Shown here: one piece after another, positions 1-21,613 of the stretch
Numbering within the stretch: the first letter of the stretch is position 1
Layout of the letters: each line of letters starts with the position of its first letter
Source: Eubacterium sp.
GTDB lineage: Bacteria > Bacillota > Clostridia > Oscillospirales > Ruminococcaceae
Assembly (NCBI GenBank): GCA_031271685.1
Contig: JAISVH010000018.1
Location: forward strand, 1-43,960
Reading direction: 5' to 3'
Length of the DNA stretch: 43,960 bases
Notes under the pieces: generated by a model
Databases searched by the model: none
The model's input: only the letters and a program-made list of their open reading frames with translations
Told to the model about the DNA's origin: nothing
Program-made: the position numbers and the translations under genes

Positions 1-3000
1 AAAGGTATAGGTCATATGTCCGATAACGTCAGTCCAGTTGCTGCCGTCTCTGCTAACCTGATATTTGGTGATTTCTGCGCCGCCATTGCTAGATGGCGCT
101 GTCCAGTTAATCGTAGCCTGGTTCACGCCGCCGGTCGCGGTTGCAGTCTCCGGAATGCCGGGAACTGTAGCAGGAGGAGTAACAGTGCCGCCACCGGCTG
201 CATATTCAATTCCAATATAACCTAAATGCTTTTCGCCGCTAGCACCACGGGAAACTGTGTGAGTCCCTGCGGGTAGCTTAACTGTATATACACCATCTGA
301 AGGTATTGCTATCTCGTCGGCAATGGTGCTTATTTTAAATTTTAAACCTGCATTTCCGGTAGCAAAGGCGAGAGTTAATGTCGCTTCATCTTCAAGAGTG
401 AAAGTGACATCCCCTCTGGAGCTTTCCATTTTCATAGGAGTCGTTATATTTTTCCCACCATAGGTCACAGAAGCTCCGGATTTTGCGCTCGGGCTTCCAC
501 CAACTACAAAGAACCCTTCTTTGTCGGTAGAAGTGAATTTTCCGTCGTCACCCATAAAGTAATGCTCTTCAATCATACCCCTAGCTTTATATTCCGGGAT
601 ACTAAAATCAATTATAGAACTTTGTTTACCGTTGTTTTCAACTATCAACCAGACCTTTGTCGCTGCTGAAGGAACGGCCAACTCAAGCGTCTTTTCACTT
701 GTCGTAACAGCGCCGCCGTTGGTGCCGGCTCTAACAGCCGCCTTATCAGGAGTGGCGTCACTTATTAAATAGTACGCGGTACCCGCAACGCTTGAAGTAA
801 ATGTAACCGTCGCAGAGGTTTCGCTAACACGTTTTGCTTCGCCGAGCGTGAGCTTAGGAATGTCCGGGTCTTCCCATTCGGGAATGACAAAGCTAGCCAC
901 ATTGCTTTGCTTTCCGCTTGCCTCGACTATCACATCCACTCTGGCTTCCGTCGCCGGAAGACCGCTAACGCTTAAAGTCGTCGTGCTCGTCGAAACTGCA
1001 CCTGCATTAGTGCCCGCCTTTACTGCAGACTTATCTGGTATAGGGTCGCTAACACCATTGACAATATAGTATGCCGTACCCGCAATACTTGAGGTGAGCT
1101 TGACTGTACCGGTATTTTGACCAGCACGCGCGGCATCTGCCTTAGAGATTTGCGGAAGACTTGGATCTACCCATTCAGGGATAGTAAAAGACACAACGTT
1201 GCTATTAAATCCATTTCCATTGGTGTCTTTATCATTAGAAACTACCACCAAAGCAAAGCTTGTTTCACTTCCGGTAACAGTTAAGTTAACAGTCGCGACA
1301 CTGCTCTCTCCGACAGTTCCGGAAACAGCTTGGCTGTTGTCAATAATCTGAGCTGCCGTCGGCTTTGCTCCAACATAAGATACAATATAATAAGTTCCGG
1401 CTTTGCTTGAAGTAAATTCTAAGCTTGCCGCTTTTTCACCGCTTCTGCTACTTGCGGCGACTTCAACCACCGGCGAACCGACAACTACTCCGCCGGGAAC
1501 AGCTTCAATTTTTAAACCGCCCAGTTTCGCTTCTTTGCTGCTGTTGGCCGACTGTATTCCATATACGCCGGGCGGAACTTCTACGGGACCCGGTTTATCT
1601 TTATCAGCCCAAACTTTGCCATCGCCATCATAGAGTACTGCGCTGTTAGAGCCGGCGCCATCTTTAATGGTGATTTTAGCGGTTCTGTCAAGCCTGAACA
1701 CCACATTCTCGCTTTTTAAGGTCATTATCTTATCTGCGGTTTTAAAGGCCTTAGCCGGGGTAAACGATACGTTATCCTCAGTTATGACAGTTTTGTCAAC
1801 AGCCAAAGTGGCCGGCACCACACCAACGCCGCCGTCAGCCGTTAAATCAAACTCATATGGCAAAGTCACAGGTTTTGACGGAATTTTAGACTCCTCAATA
1901 ATCGGCTTCGATTCCGGAGCGGCCGGAACATCTTTCATAACGCCGCTATATGCCATAACCTCCGCTTTTGCCGTACCCGCGTCCGTAAGGTTAGCTACGT
2001 CTGATTTTTTATTTACGCTGTCATAGTAAAAGATGCTAGGATTTGTATCAAAATTAGGATATGTGTTGTTGCTGGATACCTGTTGTTCTCTTGAAGTCGC
2101 AAGCGTGGCTGTACTGCCGTTTAAACAGTTGAAAAGCACATCGTTATACGATTTCACAACCGAACCGCTAGTAGTTGAATGAGGGCGGTTAACGGTATTG
2201 AACGTATTTGCCTCAGCGAACACGTAAGCATTAGCCCTTGAGTCGATTGTTTGGCTAGACTTAAGGCTTGAGCCGTCATATTCACTCTGGAAATAGTTAT
2301 TATAAATATGTATGTTTGCCTGCCTGACCAAAGGCGTTCTGGAAATTGCGTTGTTCCACCAGTTGTGATGGAAAGTCATGTGAAACTGCAAATTGTCGTC
2401 AGATGCGCCAATAAGGTTAGTTTTTTTGCAGTCCTCAAAATAGTTGTACGAAAGGGTATAATACTGCCCTCTCTTGAAGTCGCAGGAACCATCGCCCTGT
2501 GCCTTGTCCGACTCGGTCGGGTTCGCGCAGTACCCGCCGAAGAAGGTATTGTGATGTATCCATACTCTCTCGATTGGAGCGGTTAATTTTCCTCCGGACA
2601 TTTCGCCCTGTATTCCTACGGCGTCTTCAGGATAATTTTTAAAAGTAAGGTTTCTGATCTCATAGTTTTTACCGCCGTTGGTCTGCTTCGCGGAATGAAA
2701 TAAGGAGATTCCCCAACCATCAATGACAGTATCGACGCCGACACCTTCAATGGTTAGGTTTTTCGCGTCTTTGATAATGGCCATATAGCCGTTATCACCC
2801 TCCGTACCGCCGTTTAAGGTGCTGTTATAGCCGGTCAGCCCATCGTCCGGGGTAAGGGCAACTGTACCTATAAACCTGACTATCAGAGGATGCTGTGATG
2901 TGACCGCCTGCATTAAAGCGAGATTGCCGTTTAAAATCCAACCAATGCCCTTGCCATTAGTGGCGCTCTCAAAGCCGGGTATGGTAACGGTATTCTTGGT

Positions 3001-3531
3001 TGCTTGCGTCACATAAATTATTTTCGCGTTTGCTTTGGGCGTTCCATCGTCGTTATACGCGCCAACGCCTTCGGTGTACTTAAAGTGCGCATACCCGCTA
3101 CGATCGTGCTTATTCGGCGTTGCGTTAAAAGTGGTAGCAGCAGCGGCCTGCTCACCGCCGCTAGTAACCGGCGCTATTTTAATTGTATACTCTGTTCCAC
3201 CTTTAAGACCGAGAATATCCACGCGGTTATTTCGCACAAGCGGACTATCGACCGGCAAAAACGCCGAATCATTTTCTGCTGCTAATTTGTAATAAACGTT
3301 ATAAGATGTTGCTCCTGAAAAAGATTGCCATTCTGCGTAGACGCTTTCGAGCCATCCTCCCGCTTTTATTACCGTTACCTTACCGGTGGCCGCGGAAGGT
3401 GGTATGATCGGAAGAGGAACTTCTCCGTCTTTAAGAGAGCTAGCTCCTGACACCGTGATACCGGTAACAGAAGATAAGCATATTAAGGTCGCCAATAAAA
3501 AAGCCATGACTTTTCGAGAAAAGAATCGCAT
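1..3531 (-). CDS. Secreted PL1-family pectate lyase, multidomain (3' end beyond window)
   Basis: Open on the minus strand from an ATG at 3531 (RBS AAAGGAGTG) to the window edge, at least 1177 codons with no stop seen. An N-terminal signal peptide (about residues 1-30) implies secretion. A fibronectin-III-like domain follows (about 38-130). The parallel beta-helix is at about 150-480. It carries family 1 polysaccharide lyase signatures: WIHHN at 324-328, a GDGSCDF calcium-site segment at 346-352, KKTNLIG at 369-375, HHNWW at 388-392 and RTPLVR at 398-403, whose arginines include the expected catalytic one. Downstream come about three related repeats of roughly 90 residues, each ending near IPEW, then a beta-rich segment and a second FN3 domain at the edge. 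The family cleaves polygalacturonate by calcium-dependent beta-elimination. The missing C-terminus probably holds surface-anchoring or binding modules. The lyase assignment is firm; the function of the repeats is unknown. Confidence 0.9.
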   Translation of the reverse strand, partial: MRFFSRKVMAFLLATLICLSSVTGITVSGASSLKDGEVPLPIIPPSAATGKVTVIKAGGWLESVYAEWQSFSGATSYNVYYKLAAENDSAFLPVDSPLVRNNRVDILGLKGGTEYTIKIAPVTSGGEQAAAATTFNATPNKHDRSGYAHFKYTEGVGAYNDDGTPKANAKIIYVTQATKNTVTIPGFESATNGKGIGWILNGNLALMQAVTSQHPLIVRFIGTVALTPDDGLTGYNSTLNGGTEGDNGYMAIIKDAKNLTIEGVGVDTVIDGWGISLFHSAKQTNGGKNYEIRNLTFKNYPEDAVGIQGEMSGGKLTAPIERVWIHHNTFFGGYCANPTESDKAQGDGSCDFKRGQYYTLSYNYFEDCKKTNLIGASDDNLQFHMTFHHNWWNNAISRTPLVRQANIHIYNNYFQSEYDGSSLKSSQTIDSRANAYVFAEANTFNTVNRPHSTTSGSVVKSYNDVLFNCLNGSTATLATSREQQVSSNNTYPNFDTNPSIFYYDSVNKKSDVANLTDAGTAKAEVMAYSGVMKDVPAAPESKPIIEESKIPSKPVTLPYEFDLTADGGVGVVPATLAVDKTVITEDNVSFTPAKAFKTADKIMTLKSENVVFRLDRTAKITIKDGAGSNSAVLYDGDGKVWADKDKPGPVEVPPGVYGIQSANSSKEAKLGGLKIEAVPGGVVVGSPVVEVAASSRSGEKAASLEFTSSKAGTYYIVSYVGAKPTAAQIIDNSQAVSGTVGESSVATVNLTVTGSETSFALVVVSNDKDTNGNGFNSNVVSFTIPEWVDPSLPQISKADAARAGQNTGTVKLTSSIAGTAYYIVNGVSDPIPDKSAVKAGTNAGAVSTSTTTLSVSGLPATEARVDVIVEASGKQSNVASFVIPEWEDPDIPKLTLGEAKRVSETSATVTFTSSVAGTAYYLISDATPDKAAVRAGTNGGAVTTSEKTLELAVPSAATKVWLIVENNGKQSSIIDFSIPEYKARGMIEEHYFMGDDGKFTSTDKEGFFVVGGSPSAKSGASVTYGGKNITTPMKMESSRGDVTFTLEDEATLTLAFATGNAGLKFKISTIADEIAIPSDGVYTVKLPAGTHTVSRGASGEKHLGYIGIEYAAGGGTVTPPATVPGIPETATATGGVNQATINWTAPSSNGGAEITKYQVSRDGSNWTDVIGHMTYTF

Positions 3532-4917: not shown

Positions 4918-4985
4918 GCAGACGAGGTTTTATATAATAAAGCAACCATTGCCTCAAGAATTATATTTTAAAGGAGATGATATTA

Positions 4986-6650
4986 TTGTCATTGCCAACA
5001 ATTCCGGACGTGCGGGTCGTCTATTCTATCGGCGATTCGATATCTCAAATCCTAACTTCTATTGCTATGGAAGAAATAGGATTAAGCCACATAATCAACT
5101 CAGAAGGCGAAAAACTGCAATATGTTTTGGGGACTCTATCTGGAGCTAAGGGGCTTAACCCCACTATTCCCGAAATATTAGAGGTGAACGAAAGCGTAAA
5201 GGATATGCTTGACACCGTCTCAACAAATCAAATGTTCTTGTTCGCGAAGATGTCTTCAGCGCTTAATGCGTATTTTAAAAACATGAGCGCTTCAAATGAC
5301 GGCGAAGCATGTCCGAATTGCCCAAACAATCCTTCAAGCGTTGTAATAATGACAAATAAAGGTAAAATTCATGGAAGTTATATTTATCTGCCGCAAGGCG
5401 TGGCGGCTGAACTTAGCGCTTTCGTAATAACTAGCGGCGATAAAAAAGTGATTTGGTCGAATACTGATAAGCCCGGGGTTTATTTTTCCTCTAACAATAA
5501 TAAAGCATTCGTAAAAATCGACGCCGATGCCGCAGTCGGTCCCAGCATTATTATAAAGGCAAGCTCCGCCGCCAACGGCGGCAAATATGATGAGAAAACT
5601 GTCATTATTATAAACTCCGGCATTAAGGACGTAGTCATCGGGGGCGATGAAAAACTATACGCAGATTATGGCGACAACACATTTAAGGAAATAAATTCAA
5701 ACGGCACCGTCACTGAAGACTTAATCTGCGGCGGTATAGACAGAACTCCCGGGACTGAAGACGACCGTGATGACGTTATATTATCTGAAAGCGGAGTTAA
5801 ATATTTAGGGCCAAACGCCGACAATTCTTTCCAAAAAGCCGGACCGGACGGTTTGTTAGGAACCGAAGACGACCAATTTATACGAAAGATAAATGAAAAC
5901 GAAAATATAGGACCTTGCAACGAAGCCGAGCATTCGTCTTCCATTAAGGATGTGCCCGATGCCGTGACCGGCAGAATACTCAGCGCAGATAAGGCAGGAG
6001 ACAACTCGGATTGGGTCGAAATAGCGCAAAACGGAGACTTCTCGCTTATAGTACGCAAAAAATATATTAATATCTCAAGCGCGGTAGATAATTATGATAA
6101 ACCTGATTTTCAATATACCGTATTTGGCGTCGATAACAAATACGGTAATTCCACAGTCAGGCAAAAAATAAACAAATGGTTTATGAACGAGGCTTCGGGA
6201 AACGCCGACAACTTGGACCCGAATGCCGCTCTCCGGCGATTCACGGTTAAAAACACCTCTCTTATGTCTCTCGGCATCGGCACGGCAGGAGAAGAAGGCA
6301 AAGAAGACAGCTTCAGCAAACCTTCTGTGGAACTTGCTCCGTCGGGGATTGATGTCGCGTTTGCGTTAAGCTATAGCGAAGCGGCTAATTTCATCTCTAA
6401 GGAATATTCGTGGAACGGCGGCAATAATACAAGCGTTGCGGCTGCGTCAAGCAACTTTATGGAACTCCAAATACCGGATAGTAGCTCTGTCTTTGACAGG
6501 ATTTGGCTGCGCTCGCCCGGAAGCGATGAAAATATGGCATCGGATATTAATCGAAGCGGTAGGGTTTTCCAAACAAAAATTGACGGATCTCTTAATGAAT
6601 TCTGCCTTGTCTGCCCCGCACTATGGGTGATTTCAACGATATTTGAATAG
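4986..6650 (+). CDS. DUF6273-domain protein with LSHIINAEGEK N-terminal domain
   Basis: I place the start at TTG 4986 (554 codons). The ATG at 4977 lies inside the Shine-Dalgarno AAGGAG, and the TTG start aligns with the paralogue at 12442 (both begin M-S-x-P-T). The N-terminal 90 residues hold LTSIAMEEIGLSHIINSEGEK, split as LTSIAMEEIG and LSHIINSEGEK. I recall this helical domain from uncharacterised clostridial and bacillar proteins. The middle is beta-rich with two GTEDD-containing acidic loops that could bind calcium. The C-terminal 180 residues match DUF6273, including RIWLRSPGSDENM near residue 510 and a terminal CPALWV. No signal peptide is visible, so localisation is unclear. The gene is convergent with the recombinase. 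The domain calls are solid but the function is unknown. Confidence 0.75.
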   Translation: MSLPTIPDVRVVYSIGDSISQILTSIAMEEIGLSHIINSEGEKLQYVLGTLSGAKGLNPTIPEILEVNESVKDMLDTVSTNQMFLFAKMSSALNAYFKNMSASNDGEACPNCPNNPSSVVIMTNKGKIHGSYIYLPQGVAAELSAFVITSGDKKVIWSNTDKPGVYFSSNNNKAFVKIDADAAVGPSIIIKASSAANGGKYDEKTVIIINSGIKDVVIGGDEKLYADYGDNTFKEINSNGTVTEDLICGGIDRTPGTEDDRDDVILSESGVKYLGPNADNSFQKAGPDGLLGTEDDQFIRKINENENIGPCNEAEHSSSIKDVPDAVTGRILSADKAGDNSDWVEIAQNGDFSLIVRKKYINISSAVDNYDKPDFQYTVFGVDNKYGNSTVRQKINKWFMNEASGNADNLDPNAALRRFTVKNTSLMSLGIGTAGEEGKEDSFSKPSVELAPSGIDVAFALSYSEAANFISKEYSWNGGNNTSVAAASSNFMELQIPDSSSVFDRIWLRSPGSDENMASDINRSGRVFQTKIDGSLNEFCLVCPALWVISTIFE

Positions 6651-6704
6651 CTATGTTTTAAAACAGCTCAAACGCGCCTGCCGACGCGTAAAACAAGCGC
6701 AACA

Positions 6705-8360
6705 TTAAATTTTATAATCGCGTTCATGTTCATCCATCCTCTGATGTTTGAAAAGGACATACTGATCGGCAAACCTAAAATTGATTTCAACAGACTTGTC
6801 GTTATATACATAAACAGATTCTATCAAATCAAGCGCTAAACTTCTCTTTAATTCCGAAGCGCGCTTATTTTTTTTGAATGATTCAAAATAGGCCGGCATA
6901 TCGCTGGCTGTTTTTACATTATTTGTTATTTCATTTGACAAGCTCTTAATTAGCCTCATTAATTCATTTTGTCTCTTTTCGCATATGTCGCGAATTCTTT
7001 TAAATTGCTCTTCGCTAATACTGCCCTTGATTAGATCATAATATAGCCTGTCACAAACCGCTATTTCGTTTTCAAGCTCTTTTTTTGAAAGCGCAATTTT
7101 TTCCTCAAAATCATCTATGTCAGTTGATTTTCTGGGGGCATCGCTAATTCGTTGCAATAAAAGCTGTATATCATCTAGCTGCAATATTTGAAAATTAACG
7201 GCTTCTAAAACCGCGCTGAATAAAACGTCCTCACGTATAGAGTGAGATTGGCAGAACTGCTTTCCTTTCTCATTGTATGTTCTGCAGGAGTAATATACAT
7301 TGCCCTTAGAAGACTTTCTTGACATTGCTTTTTTGCATTCGCCGCATTTTAGGATTCCGCCTAAAGGATAGATATTACCCAACGTTCCCGCCCTTACGTT
7401 TTGCCCTAATACCCGCTGTGCTCTTTGAAAGGTTTCGTTATCTATAATAGGTTCATGAGTTCCGTCTACTATATACCAATTTTCTTTAGGCCTCTTCCTG
7501 GATTTATGCACTTTATAATTTATGACTTCTTCACGGCCTTGAACCATTTTGCCTAAATAAACTTCATTTGTTAAAATACGGCGTACAGAGCTTGAACTCC
7601 ATAAGCCGTCATTCCCCATGGGATTTTTAAGCTTGATTCCATTTCGATTTTTATATTTTGTCGGGTTGGGGATTTCAAGCGCGTTTAATTTTCTTACAAT
7701 CGCGCCCAAACTCATTAAATCATCAGAATACCACAAAAAAATCTTTTTTACGATCTCCGCTGCCGCTGGATCTATTATTAAAATGTCGTTGTTATCAGGG
7801 CTCTTGTCATATCCAAACGGCGCAAAAGCCCCGATAAACTCTCCTAGTTTACGCTTTAAGTCAAACTTACTTCGAATTTTTATTGATGTGTCATACGCGA
7901 ACTGTTCATTGGTTATCCCCTGAATTTTAACGCTCAGATTCATAGCTGATTGCGGCAGCAAATAACTGTCTACATACTGCAGCGTAGTGCTGATAAAGCG
8001 TATATCATGAAGCGGGAAATATTCTTCAAGATAATAAGTTTGATCGGAAATATTCCTGAACCCGCGAGATAAGTCTGATATTAGCAAACAGTTATACTTT
8101 TTTTCTTTCAATAATTCAATCACTTCATTAAATCCTGTTCTTTTAGTGTCTGTTCCTGTTTCACCGTCGTCATATATGACTTTGTGCTTAGCGATATTTT
8201 CGCCGAGCGCTTTCATATTTTTAATATATAGTTCAAGCTGTTTAATTTGGTTTTCTACGCTTGCGCTTTTTTCACCTTCGGCCTTACCATGATCTTCATC
8301 AGATAATCTGACATATGCGATAATTCTCCACTCTTTTGAATTTTCTAGTTCGTTTTTCAT
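6705..8360 (-). CDS. Large serine recombinase (site-specific integrase/resolvase type)
   Basis: A 551-residue protein from the ATG at 8360, which has GGAGG at the right distance. An ATG at 8447 extends the frame 29 codons into a repeat element and is rejected. The resolvase domain spans about 11-160, with nucleophile Ser20 in AYVRLSDED and conserved GETGTD, LLISDLSRGFRN and LEEYFP blocks. The recombinase domain is at about 190-300 (APFGYDKSPD, WSSSSVRRILTN). A zinc ribbon follows (CGECKK at about 340, then two more cysteines), then a coiled coil and tail. Nothing looks broken. Such enzymes integrate phages and elements or excise sporulation-interrupting elements. No phage genes or att pair are obvious nearby. 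The last codons (HERDYKI) lie within sequence matching the tail of repeat R1, an oddity treated below. Confidence 0.92.
   Translation of the reverse strand: MKNELENSKEWRIIAYVRLSDEDHGKAEGEKSASVENQIKQLELYIKNMKALGENIAKHKVIYDDGETGTDTKRTGFNEVIELLKEKKYNCLLISDLSRGFRNISDQTYYLEEYFPLHDIRFISTTLQYVDSYLLPQSAMNLSVKIQGITNEQFAYDTSIKIRSKFDLKRKLGEFIGAFAPFGYDKSPDNNDILIIDPAAAEIVKKIFLWYSDDLMSLGAIVRKLNALEIPNPTKYKNRNGIKLKNPMGNDGLWSSSSVRRILTNEVYLGKMVQGREEVINYKVHKSRKRPKENWYIVDGTHEPIIDNETFQRAQRVLGQNVRAGTLGNIYPLGGILKCGECKKAMSRKSSKGNVYYSCRTYNEKGKQFCQSHSIREDVLFSAVLEAVNFQILQLDDIQLLLQRISDAPRKSTDIDDFEEKIALSKKELENEIAVCDRLYYDLIKGSISEEQFKRIRDICEKRQNELMRLIKSLSNEITNNVKTASDMPAYFESFKKNKRASELKRSLALDLIESVYVYNDKSVEINFRFADQYVLFKHQRMDEHERDYKI
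6711..6733 (-). repeat. R1 tail-like sequence inside the recombinase 3' end
   Basis: TATAATCGCGTTCATGT matches the R1 tail (TATAACCGCGTTCATGT at 30883) at 16 of 17 positions and encodes the recombinase's final residues. Confidence 0.5.
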
Positions 8361-8385
8361 GACTTCCTCCGTCATTCTATTTTTT

Positions 8386-8456
8386 GGCAATGCCGCACAG
8401 CTCTGGCGTGCAAGGCATGCAGTTGGATTTTTCATCAAACTAGGCAATTTTGCCGC
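8386..8456 (+). repeat. R2 half element, copy 1
   Basis: Begins GGCAATGCCGCACAG and ends GGCAATTTTGCCGCG, the left half of the R2 fold-back. It is the first of four elements chained through 8712 in the 600-base gap between the divergent recombinase and luxR genes. Positions 8713-8961 are AT-rich with only the luxR RBS evident. Confidence 0.75.
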
Positions 8457-12441: not shown

Positions 12442-12933
12442 ATGTCAATGCCAACATTCCCCGAGCCTTCTTCAATATTAAACAGCGAAGAGGCGGTTAA
12501 CGCTATTTTAACATCCATAGCGCTAGAAGAAAGCGCATTAAGTCATATACTAAATGCCGAGGGAGAAAAAATCCAATACGCGCTAAAGCACATAAAGCAT
12601 GAATGCGATTATGATATGGAATTAATTTTAAAAGTCAACGAAAGTGTAGCCTCAACACTTGAGAATATTAATGATATTCAGCTTGTTTTAATAAATAAAT
12701 TAAATAAAGTATTAAAGTATGTGCTGCAAAAGCCTGACGGCAAACAAAAATCCGACGACCATATTAATCAGACGACTCACGGTCACCCTCGCAACGATCG
12801 ATTCTGCATGCGCCGATCACACTTATTACGCAAACCATACGTTTTAAAATCTTTAAATGCAGCAAAATCGGATTTGGAATGCAAATATAACTTATGCACA
12901 AATAAATGCGTTTGCTGTGATATAATCGTTTAG
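12442..12933 (+). CDS. LSHILNAEGEK-domain protein, paralogue of the 4986 N-terminus
   Basis: A 163-residue protein with RBS GAAAGGA. Residues 1-95 align with the N-terminal domain of the 4986 product: the same M-S-x-P-T start, ILTSIALEESALSHILNAEG and then KVNESV. The two genes also share similar sequence around the RBS and start. The C-terminal DUF6273 module is absent. It is replaced by a basic tail ending in a cysteine cluster (C-N-L-C-T-N-K-C-V-C-C). This may be a separate short surface or spore-associated protein or a decayed copy. I cannot assign a function. Confidence 0.65.
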   Translation: MSMPTFPEPSSILNSEEAVNAILTSIALEESALSHILNAEGEKIQYALKHIKHECDYDMELILKVNESVASTLENINDIQLVLINKLNKVLKYVLQKPDGKQKSDDHINQTTHGHPRNDRFCMRRSHLLRKPYVLKSLNAAKSDLECKYNLCTNKCVCCDIIV

Positions 12934-20619: not shown

Positions 20620-20626
20620 TTCGACA
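20620..20626 (-). promoter_or_regulatory. Possible 0A box upstream of spo0A
   Basis: TGTCGAA on the minus strand, an exact match to the Spo0A binding core, about 40 bases upstream of the spo0A -35. It is a short motif and may be chance. Confidence 0.3.
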
Positions 20627-20666
20627 TCAAATGACATATTTTATGCGAATTCAACAATAAAAGTTC

Positions 20667-20695
20667 TTGAAAATTAGTGTTTTTTATGGTATTAT
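20667..20695 (+). promoter_or_regulatory. Sigma-A promoter of spo0A
   Basis: TTGAAA (20667-20672), 17 bases, TATTAT (20690-20695). The RBS AGGAGG follows near 20723. I did not recognise a sigma-H promoter. Confidence 0.5.
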
Positions 20696-20733: not shown

Positions 20734-21555
20734 ATGACGCAAAAGGTAAAAGTTTTAATTGGGGACGACACTATTGAGCAAGGTTTGACCTGGGCGGGAG
20801 TATTCAAGGCAAGAGGAATGTACGCGGTAACAAGACCAAAACAAGGGAAAGTTATTTTGGATTCAGTACTGTCAGACGCGCCGGACGTTCTGATAGTCGA
20901 AGCAAAAATGCCCGAACTTGACGCTGTATCGCTTCTCAACGAGCTCTCTAGACTGAAATCGAATAGCAATGAGCCAGGGTCCGGGGGACTGCCCGTGCCG
21001 TCGCCAATGGTAATAGTGATATCTAACTATGATTCGGCTCATCTTGAACGGGAAATAATGAGCGCCGGGGCAAAATATTATATGGTAAAGCCGTTTGAAC
21101 CGAAAACGCTTGCCGAGCGAGTTCAAAACATTCTGGTATCCGGTCAGGGGATAAAAGACGTTACATACAATGTGCACCACGACCTGCCGGACGACTTAGA
21201 ATATTTGGTTACTGACATAATACACCAAATAGGCATACCTGCACATATTAAAGGTTATCACTATCTACGCAGCGCGATTATTTTATGCGTTGAAGACACC
21301 GAAATGATGAACAGCATAACTAAGTTGTTGTATCCTGAAGTAGCGGACAAGTATTCAACTACACCATCGCGGGTGGAACGCGCGATAAGACATGCAATCG
21401 AGATAGCGTGGGACAGAGGCGACGTAGAGACGCTCAACGGATTTTTCGGATATACGATACATACCGGGCGCGGCAAGCCCACCAATTCAGAGTTTATTGC
21501 GCTTATTTCAGATAAAATAAGGCTTAGGCTTAAGGGAAAGAGTTATACGGTGTAA
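20734..21555 (+). CDS. spo0A: Spo0A-like response regulator with Glu at the phosphorylation site
   Basis: A 273-residue protein of Spo0A length. The C-terminal DNA-binding domain (about 155-273) is unmistakable: GIPAHIKGYHYLRSAI, YSTTPSRVERAIRHAIEIAW and KPTNSEFIALISDK. The receiver keeps the acidic pair Asp11-Asp12 (IGDD), the switch Ser in VIVIS and the Lys in YMVKPF. The phosphoacceptor, Asp56 in Bacillus subtilis, is Glu56 here (codon GAA at 20899-20901, in DVLIVEAKMP). The loop after helix 3 is extended (SNSNEPGSGGLPVPSP). Glu can mimic aspartyl phosphate in some receivers, so the protein may be constitutively active or regulated without a phosphorelay. It sits alone between feoAB and mutS2, not beside spoIVB/recN. 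Confidence 0.95.
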   Translation: MTQKVKVLIGDDTIEQGLTWAGVFKARGMYAVTRPKQGKVILDSVLSDAPDVLIVEAKMPELDAVSLLNELSRLKSNSNEPGSGGLPVPSPMVIVISNYDSAHLEREIMSAGAKYYMVKPFEPKTLAERVQNILVSGQGIKDVTYNVHHDLPDDLEYLVTDIIHQIGIPAHIKGYHYLRSAIILCVEDTEMMNSITKLLYPEVADKYSTTPSRVERAIRHAIEIAWDRGDVETLNGFFGYTIHTGRGKPTNSEFIALISDKIRLRLKGKSYTV

Positions 21556-21558
21556 ATA

Positions 21559-21613
21559 TATAGCAAATTGCGTTTTTATGGGATTTATTCTCATAAAAAC
21601 GCAATTTGCTATA
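21559..21613. terminator. R3 short fold-back; likely bidirectional terminator (spo0A/mutS2)
   Basis: Perfect 22-bp arms TATAGCAAATTGCGTTTTTATG / CATAAAAACGCAATTTGCTATA (given here as arm ends) lie between convergent genes, starting 4 bases after the spo0A stop. The stem has T-runs on either strand. Confidence 0.6.

Follow-up and report, generated by a model that had tools for sequence, protein, structure and literature searches.

A Spo0A homolog with glutamate in place of the phospho-accepting aspartate, a state that recurs across its order and is coupled to residue 119

In the stretch of Eubacterium sp. DNA analyzed here (43,960 nucleotides, hereafter the window), spo0A encodes a response regulator that is by sequence a member of the Spo0A family and that carries glutamate instead of Asp56, the residue by which the phosphorylation-controlled class is defined. 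Across relatives, Glu56 is a clade-wide, repeatedly evolved state that is coupled to residue 119. Most likely, aspartate phosphorylation no longer gates this Spo0A, and with moderate confidence we regard the protein as a working Spo0A whose receiver is not switched in this way, control having moved to its amount or to another input. In Bacilli and Clostridia alike, the literature presents Spo0A phosphorylation as the key switch into sporulation (Galperin 2012, PMC3533761; Mehdizadeh Gohari 2024, PMC11210211). The gene and the parts of its product lie in the window as follows.

20734..21555, forward strand: spo0A, open reading frame of 273 amino acids, Spo0A-family response regulator with Glu56
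20752..21126, forward strand: receiver domain, residues 7-131 (Pfam Response_reg, 43.0 bits)
20764..20769, forward strand: acidic pair Asp11-Asp12 (alignment)
20899..20901, forward strand: codon 56, GAA (Glu), at the phospho-acceptor position (sequence, alignment)
20950..21003, forward strand: lengthened loop after helix 3, approximate place (alignment, 30 residues)
21022..21024, forward strand: switch Ser97 (alignment)
21088..21090, forward strand: Lys119, conserved, coupled to residue 56 across relatives (alignment, tree tests)
21208..21519, forward strand: Spo0A_C DNA-binding domain, residues 159-262 (Pfam, 151.9 bits; PDB chains 1fc3 and 1lq1)

The first-pass annotation, made from the sequence alone, had described a Glu codon at position 56, a classic Spo0A DNA-binding domain, a retained Asp11-Asp12 pair, switch Ser and Lys, and an extended loop after helix 3, and all of these hold. 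The protein passes the TIGR02875 model (243.5 bits; equivalog cut-off, 200), and its domain order in Pfam is Response_reg (43.0 bits) followed by Spo0A_C (151.9 bits). Codon 56, within the motif DVLIVEAKMP, is GAA; in the alignment D11, D12, S97, and K119 are kept, and the Asp at 56 is the canonical receiver feature that is missing. The loop after helix 3 measures 30 residues as an aligned stretch, compared with a median of 18 or 19 in each of the six groups compared; it is common to the second Spo0A copy of the same genome (29 residues), and the nearest relative (L012) is without it (19 residues). The protein shares with canonical Spo0A (Bacillus/Clostridium type, TIGR02875) its domain order, DNA-binding domain, acidic pair, and Lys, as well as the sporulation gene set of its genome, whereas it differs in having no phospho-acceptor Asp, a receiver that matches only 47.5% of the columns invariant in the phylum, and the long loop.

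Of 66 phylum-invariant columns in the DNA-binding domain, the window protein matches 88%, compared with 47.5% of 40 in the receiver; the same receiver erosion (48% of phylum-invariant columns) is seen across the whole order, where the DNA-binding domain is not eroded. When five features are taken as canonical (the two acids, Asp56, Thr/Ser97, and Lys119), the full set is present in 83 of 181 proteins from the rest of the order and in 2 of 61 from the genus, compared with 30/30 in a phylum sample and 27/30 in a class sample, both of which favor canonical proteins because high scorers were chosen (30 of 54 genomes for the phylum; the best-scoring 30 of 40 genomes with a match for the class).

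The glutamate is not an error, since the second copy and the nearest relative share it. The second spo0A copy of the window's genome (L273, positions 6150-6968 of the 7.3 kb contig C46 of G000) encodes a protein 85.7% identical to that of the window; a gene near it was taken by eye to be thrS-like. This copy may be a paralog or the gene of a co-binned strain. Among the matches listed, the nearest relative in another genome (L012, from Oscillospiraceae bacterium isolate Th196P3bin43) is 78% identical. The first-pass annotation had pointed to a second canonical Spo0A, or to an Asp codon in sister sequences, as evidence that would speak against its reading: a second copy was indeed found, yet it too has Glu56, and neither it nor the nearest relative has an Asp codon at this position. 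The window's genome (93% complete) yielded no third match to Spo0A_C. Comparison of the two copies gives dN/dS of ~0.10/1.17 for the receiver and ~0.04/0.58 for the DNA-binding domain, and these low values indicate that purifying selection maintains both. The calculation was attempted on eight pairs; dS was too large in three of them for the receiver or for both domains and in two further pairs for the DNA-binding domain only. With 152 contigs and 93% completeness, the genome assembly is fragmented, which leaves some room for a sequencing or assembly artifact or for a gene in decay in a lineage that does not sporulate; however, the glutamate in the second copy and in relatives rules out the artifact, and with purifying selection and sporulation genes present as well, we find this whole explanation hardly credible.

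As for those sporulation genes, the survey covered a core set only, by gene presence, and found spoIIAA-spoIIAB-sigF, sigG, spoIIE, and spoIVA in the window's genome. SpoIIAB, SigG (PRK08215), and SpoIVA score above curated cut-offs; SpoIIAA, SigF, and SpoIIE fall below them, although SpoIIE is full-length and the SpoIIAA and SigF genes sit in the expected operon despite their scores. Among the 71 genomes of the genus, SpoIVA is over its cut-off in 53, SpoIIE has a match in 60, and a sigma-F/G-type match is found in 67. We also counted by residue-56 state in the 54 genus genomes with an over-cut-off Spo0A. SpoIVA is over its cut-off in 26/31 Glu56 genomes, 13/15 Asp56-Arg119 genomes, 3/3 Asp56-Lys119 genomes, and 5/5 genomes without an acidic residue at this site; the corresponding counts for a SpoIIE match are 28/31, 15/15, 1/3, and 5/5, and sigma-F/G-type genes occur in all five acid-less genomes. 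Repurposing of Spo0A in a non-sporulating lineage, one of the options raised by the first-pass annotation, is therefore disfavored: SpoIVA, SpoIIE, and sigma-F/G genes are retained across most of the genus, and the sporulation genes are present both here and in most of its Glu56 genomes.

For the wider comparison we aligned 243 non-redundant Spo0As, none shorter than 200 residues; they were taken from the genus (71 genomes), from 297 sampled genomes of the order, and from 80 named relatives. The order set consisted of the 80 relatives nearest to the window (the best 80 of at least 582 confirmed) together with 30 best-scoring, 60 chosen, and 30 low-scoring genomes. From 272 loci, nine without a match at E 1e-30 (L144-L152) and three with proteins shorter than 200 residues were set aside, and identical sequences were merged. 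Second copies are among the 61 genus sequences, which represent 54 genomes. The tree was built from 242 Spo0As (one truncated protein was omitted) with columns 56 and 119 excluded.

With residue 56 mapped on this alignment of orthologs, as the first-pass annotation had proposed, Glu is found in 62 of the 242 order Spo0As; the others have Asp (164), Asn (7), a gap (6), or Ser (3), so that the residue is acidic in 226. Changes between Asp and Glu number at least 24 on the tree by the Fitch criterion and 21-24 on 12 bootstrap trees. In one reconstruction of 24 changes, 15 run from Asp to Glu and nine from Glu to Asp, and these nine imply that Asp is still acceptable at position 56. Each Asp/Glu codon change needs a single base only; the genus codons are GAA (21), GAG (13), GAC (12), and GAT (7). 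In five genus genomes (G036, G063, G064, G065, and G069) the acidic site is lost, and residue 119 is Arg there. Three members of this acid-less subclade (G036, G064, and G065) carry second, strongly degenerate Spo0A copies (L141, L142, and L143); the two tested, L142 and L143, retain Spo0A_C at 132 and 117 bits in Pfam. Outside the order, two genomes from another order of the class have a Spo0A with Glu56 in the motif VTELLLPTL (L396 and L397), which indicates that the change arose elsewhere too.

Position 119 is one of the five textbook active-site positions of receivers. In the 69-tip clade around the genus, Lys119 is found in 39/40 Glu56 proteins and Arg119 in 16/21 Asp56 proteins; outside the genus the pairing is looser (of 181 proteins, 128 are Asp-Lys, 22 Glu-Lys, 14 Asp-Arg, and 5 Glu-Arg). 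A model in which the two residues depend on each other is preferred over independence with a likelihood ratio (LR) of 18.1 in the clade and 13.3 on the whole tree (4 d.f.). The clade value was reached in none of 74 simulations under independence (largest, 7.8), and on 12 bootstrap trees it ranged from 13.6 to 18.0. Thus, the coupling survives correction for relatedness, in a test that is post hoc because the pair was first noticed in the same data. In an open branch-by-branch scan of position 56 against the other receiver columns, 119 ranked fourth (p=0.0076), and no receiver column passed multiple testing.

These distributions bear on the main rival to our reading, namely that the receiver ceased to be phosphorylated long ago in the order, Asp or Glu at 56 being a near-neutral structural choice within an inert or ligand-binding dimerization module and Glu56 no phosphomimic. 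Changes in both directions (15 Asp to Glu, nine Glu to Asp), the occurrence of Asn, Ser, and gaps together with a whole subclade devoid of an acidic residue, and the order-wide erosion of receiver but not DNA-binding columns (48% of phylum-invariant receiver columns remaining) would all be consistent with such relaxed constraint. On the other hand, 226 of 242 proteins keep an acidic residue at the site, and around the genus Glu56 does not vary freely but goes with Lys119. We consider this explanation unlikely, though not to be dismissed lightly; it shares with the reading we prefer the rejection of a standard kinase switch and differs from it on whether Glu56 actively holds the dimer form.

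The same substitution is known from other response regulators. In 1993, Klose reportedly described an Asp-to-Glu phosphomimetic form of the response regulator NtrC. Compared with NtrC-type phosphomimetic mutants, the substitution and the site here are the same, but the state is natural, clade-wide, and coupled to residue 119. Going by its residues, the window protein also falls within the definition of aspartate-less receivers (ALRs), of which ChxR (Glu) and RitR (Asn) are given as examples (Maule 2015, PMC4395418). In the survey reported there, Glu is the commonest replacement of Asp (26%). As described for ALR domains such as ChxR and RitR, the Asp is replaced while the first acidic residue and Lys-Pro are kept; in contrast, the second acidic residue, acidic in only 29% of the survey, is kept in the window Spo0A, and the ALR state here recurs in a master developmental regulator (PMC4395418). 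A natural Glu56 Spo0A was not found described in a literature search that covered titles and abstract openings together with passages of PMC4395418, PMC3533761, and PMC11210211; the search lay mainly outside the subscription literature and is no proof of absence.

In clostridia, orphan kinases are thought to act on Spo0A without an intervening relay (PMC3533761, PMC11210211). From 25 HATPase_c matches in the window's genome we examined 12 HisKA/HATPase-type kinases, of which nine are hybrid and three adjoin a response regulator. Orphans therefore number 0/12 here; they number 0/12 in a second Glu56 genome (G068), 0/8 in G064, which has no acidic site, 1/12 in G001 (Asp56-Arg119), and 0/10 (G080) and 2/9 (G029, one of the two at a contig end) in Asp56-Lys119 genomes. 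Since an Asp56-Lys119 genome also has none among ten, orphan counts fail to separate the states. HisKA matches per genome do not separate them either: medians are 15 for Glu56 (n=31), 12 for Asp-Arg (n=15), 11 for Asp-Lys (n=3), and 10 for no acid (n=5), and the comparison of Glu56 with Asp56 gives p=0.14, with kinases not fewer in Glu56 genomes. Kinase loss is thus rejected as a signature of Glu56, and kinase input may persist. The orphan-kinase survey that the first-pass annotation proposed thus does not discriminate, with none among 12 here and none among ten in G080. Its proposal that a Glu56 Spo0A would need no phosphorelay, extended here to kinases in general, is the likeliest inference and agrees with the wider pattern of recurrence.

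Among the remaining HATPase_c matches are three AgrC-like GHKL kinases. Two adjoin LytTR genes (on contigs C129 and C10), and no regulator was found in the 2.7 kb locus of the third (C146); likewise, none was found near a HATPase protein on C58. The other matches were taken by eye for CheA, GyrB/ParE, MutL, HtpG, SpoIIAB, and the like. The C10 locus (L305) is of the agr type: the genes for AgrB, the AgrC-like GHKL kinase, and the LytTR regulator are adjacent. It is a possible quorum-sensing input. Seven genomes (G004, G012, G009, G006, G013, G016, and G045) encode a divergent Spo0A-like regulator (L144-L150), for which the two proteins tested (L144 and L150) match Spo0A_C at 57-62 bits in Pfam; the receiver has Asp in six of the seven read and Glu in L149. 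One of these genomes, G045 (98% complete), carries the divergent gene L150 and no over-cut-off Spo0A. This regulator was not found in the window's genome.

The sequences that flank spo0A offer a candidate for control by amount.

20620..20636, reverse strand: two TGTC boxes 10 bp apart, a possible autoregulatory site, one with the 0A-box core TGTCGAA (20620-20626)
20667..20695, forward strand: promoter-like TTGAAA-N17-TATTAT, recognizable also upstream of the second copy and in the relative G007
21563..21609, forward strand: terminator-like stem-loop after spo0A (sequence scan)

The tandem TGTC boxes end ~30 bp upstream of the -35-like element and would fit autoregulation by a DNA-binding dimer; in the relative G007, two perfect TTTGTCGAA boxes, also 10 bp apart, lie upstream of spo0A. 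Promoter-like and terminator-like sites in the region are near chance in number (6 versus 4.2 expected and 2 versus 1.2 expected, respectively). Within 200 bp upstream of spo0A, the Glu56 loci of the genus have nine TGTCGAA sites in 7/34 loci, where first-order Markov resampling gives 0.68 expected; 27/34 have none in this interval. Asp56 loci of the genus have the core in 3/19 (0.42 expected), and other loci in 3/8 (0.22 expected). Over the whole window, 0A boxes are not enriched (53 versus 44.4 expected; TGTCGAA, 3 versus 5.3 expected). Only the count restricted to the promoter region is suggestive. Upstream of spoIIE and spoIIAA in the window's genome, there are only 0A boxes with one mismatch.

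The upstream, divergent neighbors of spo0A are a small gene that we take by eye to be feoA and then feoB; mutS2 lies downstream and is convergent. The other window genes have no match in the eight stretches compared, seven of which contain spo0A. Two of these stretches, G008 and G016, have a gene run in common that includes spoIVA, and G016 and G009 have two genes in common. Scans of the window for tRNAs and Rfam families gave no matches. Elsewhere in the window, two proteins (4977-6650 and 12442-12933), neither of which has a Pfam match at 0.001 or an NCBIfam match at 1e-5, share the N-terminal motif ILTSIA-EE--LSHI-N-EGEK-QY and are 39% identical over 93 residues. One of them adjoins the gene for a large serine recombinase (6705-8447; PHROG 95, integrase), possibly a trace of a mobile element. 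At 1-3531, the window encodes a pectate lyase with the carbohydrate-binding module CBM77, which would fit a plant-fiber diet.

How might such a receiver work? A histidine kinase is not expected to transfer phosphate to Glu56. Instead, Glu56 probably pairs with Lys119 as phospho-Asp normally does, and the pair would hold the receiver in, or near, its dimerizing form; Asp56-Arg119 may achieve the same in a second way, the longer side chain then coming from the opposite residue of the pair. Control would then rest on the amount of Spo0A, for which the tandem 0A-like boxes upstream of its own promoter are a candidate site, or on another input to the receiver. Constitutive activity, another option of the first-pass annotation, is possible. 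Replacement of Asp by Glu alone is reported to be insufficient for it in Spo0A (Maule 2015, PMC4395418, citing Green 1991), so other changes in the window receiver would have to contribute. The same report could be read to mean that Glu56 locks the receiver OFF, Spo0A then being a repressor or active only at large amounts or with a partner protein (PMC4395418). However, most Glu56 genomes keep sporulation genes and both copies here are under purifying selection, and we regard a locked-OFF receiver as improbable. Still less likely, in our view, is that phosphorylation control persists through a different residue or through another, Asp-bearing Spo0A-like protein: some relatives do have the divergent regulator with an Asp receiver (L144-L148 and L150), and many kinases of the window's genome are hybrid (9 of the 12 examined), but the only two Spo0A_C matches in that genome (93% complete) both have Glu56.

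Extending our preferred reading, a working Spo0A that is not switched by aspartate phosphorylation, to the genus as a whole is more tentative. Here, the sporulation decision may have been disconnected from Asp phosphorylation of Spo0A, with Glu56-Lys119 and Asp56-Arg119 pairs replacing the phospho-Asp-Lys pair, one subclade discarding the site altogether, and entry being set by Spo0A amount or by a ligand; we hold this as plausible, somewhat short of an even call.

A clade with core sporulation genes but without the phosphorylation site would break the rule that Spo0A acts through its phosphorylation. In these bacteria, most of which are from the gut and carry core spore genes, the Spo0A phospho-site has been lost repeatedly, so the sporulation decision may be controlled otherwise, which would bear on sporulation entry in the gut relatives of Ruminococcus. 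Such a clade would also supply, for comparison, naturally occurring forms of a single master regulator in which the site is phosphomimetic-like, altered, or deleted.
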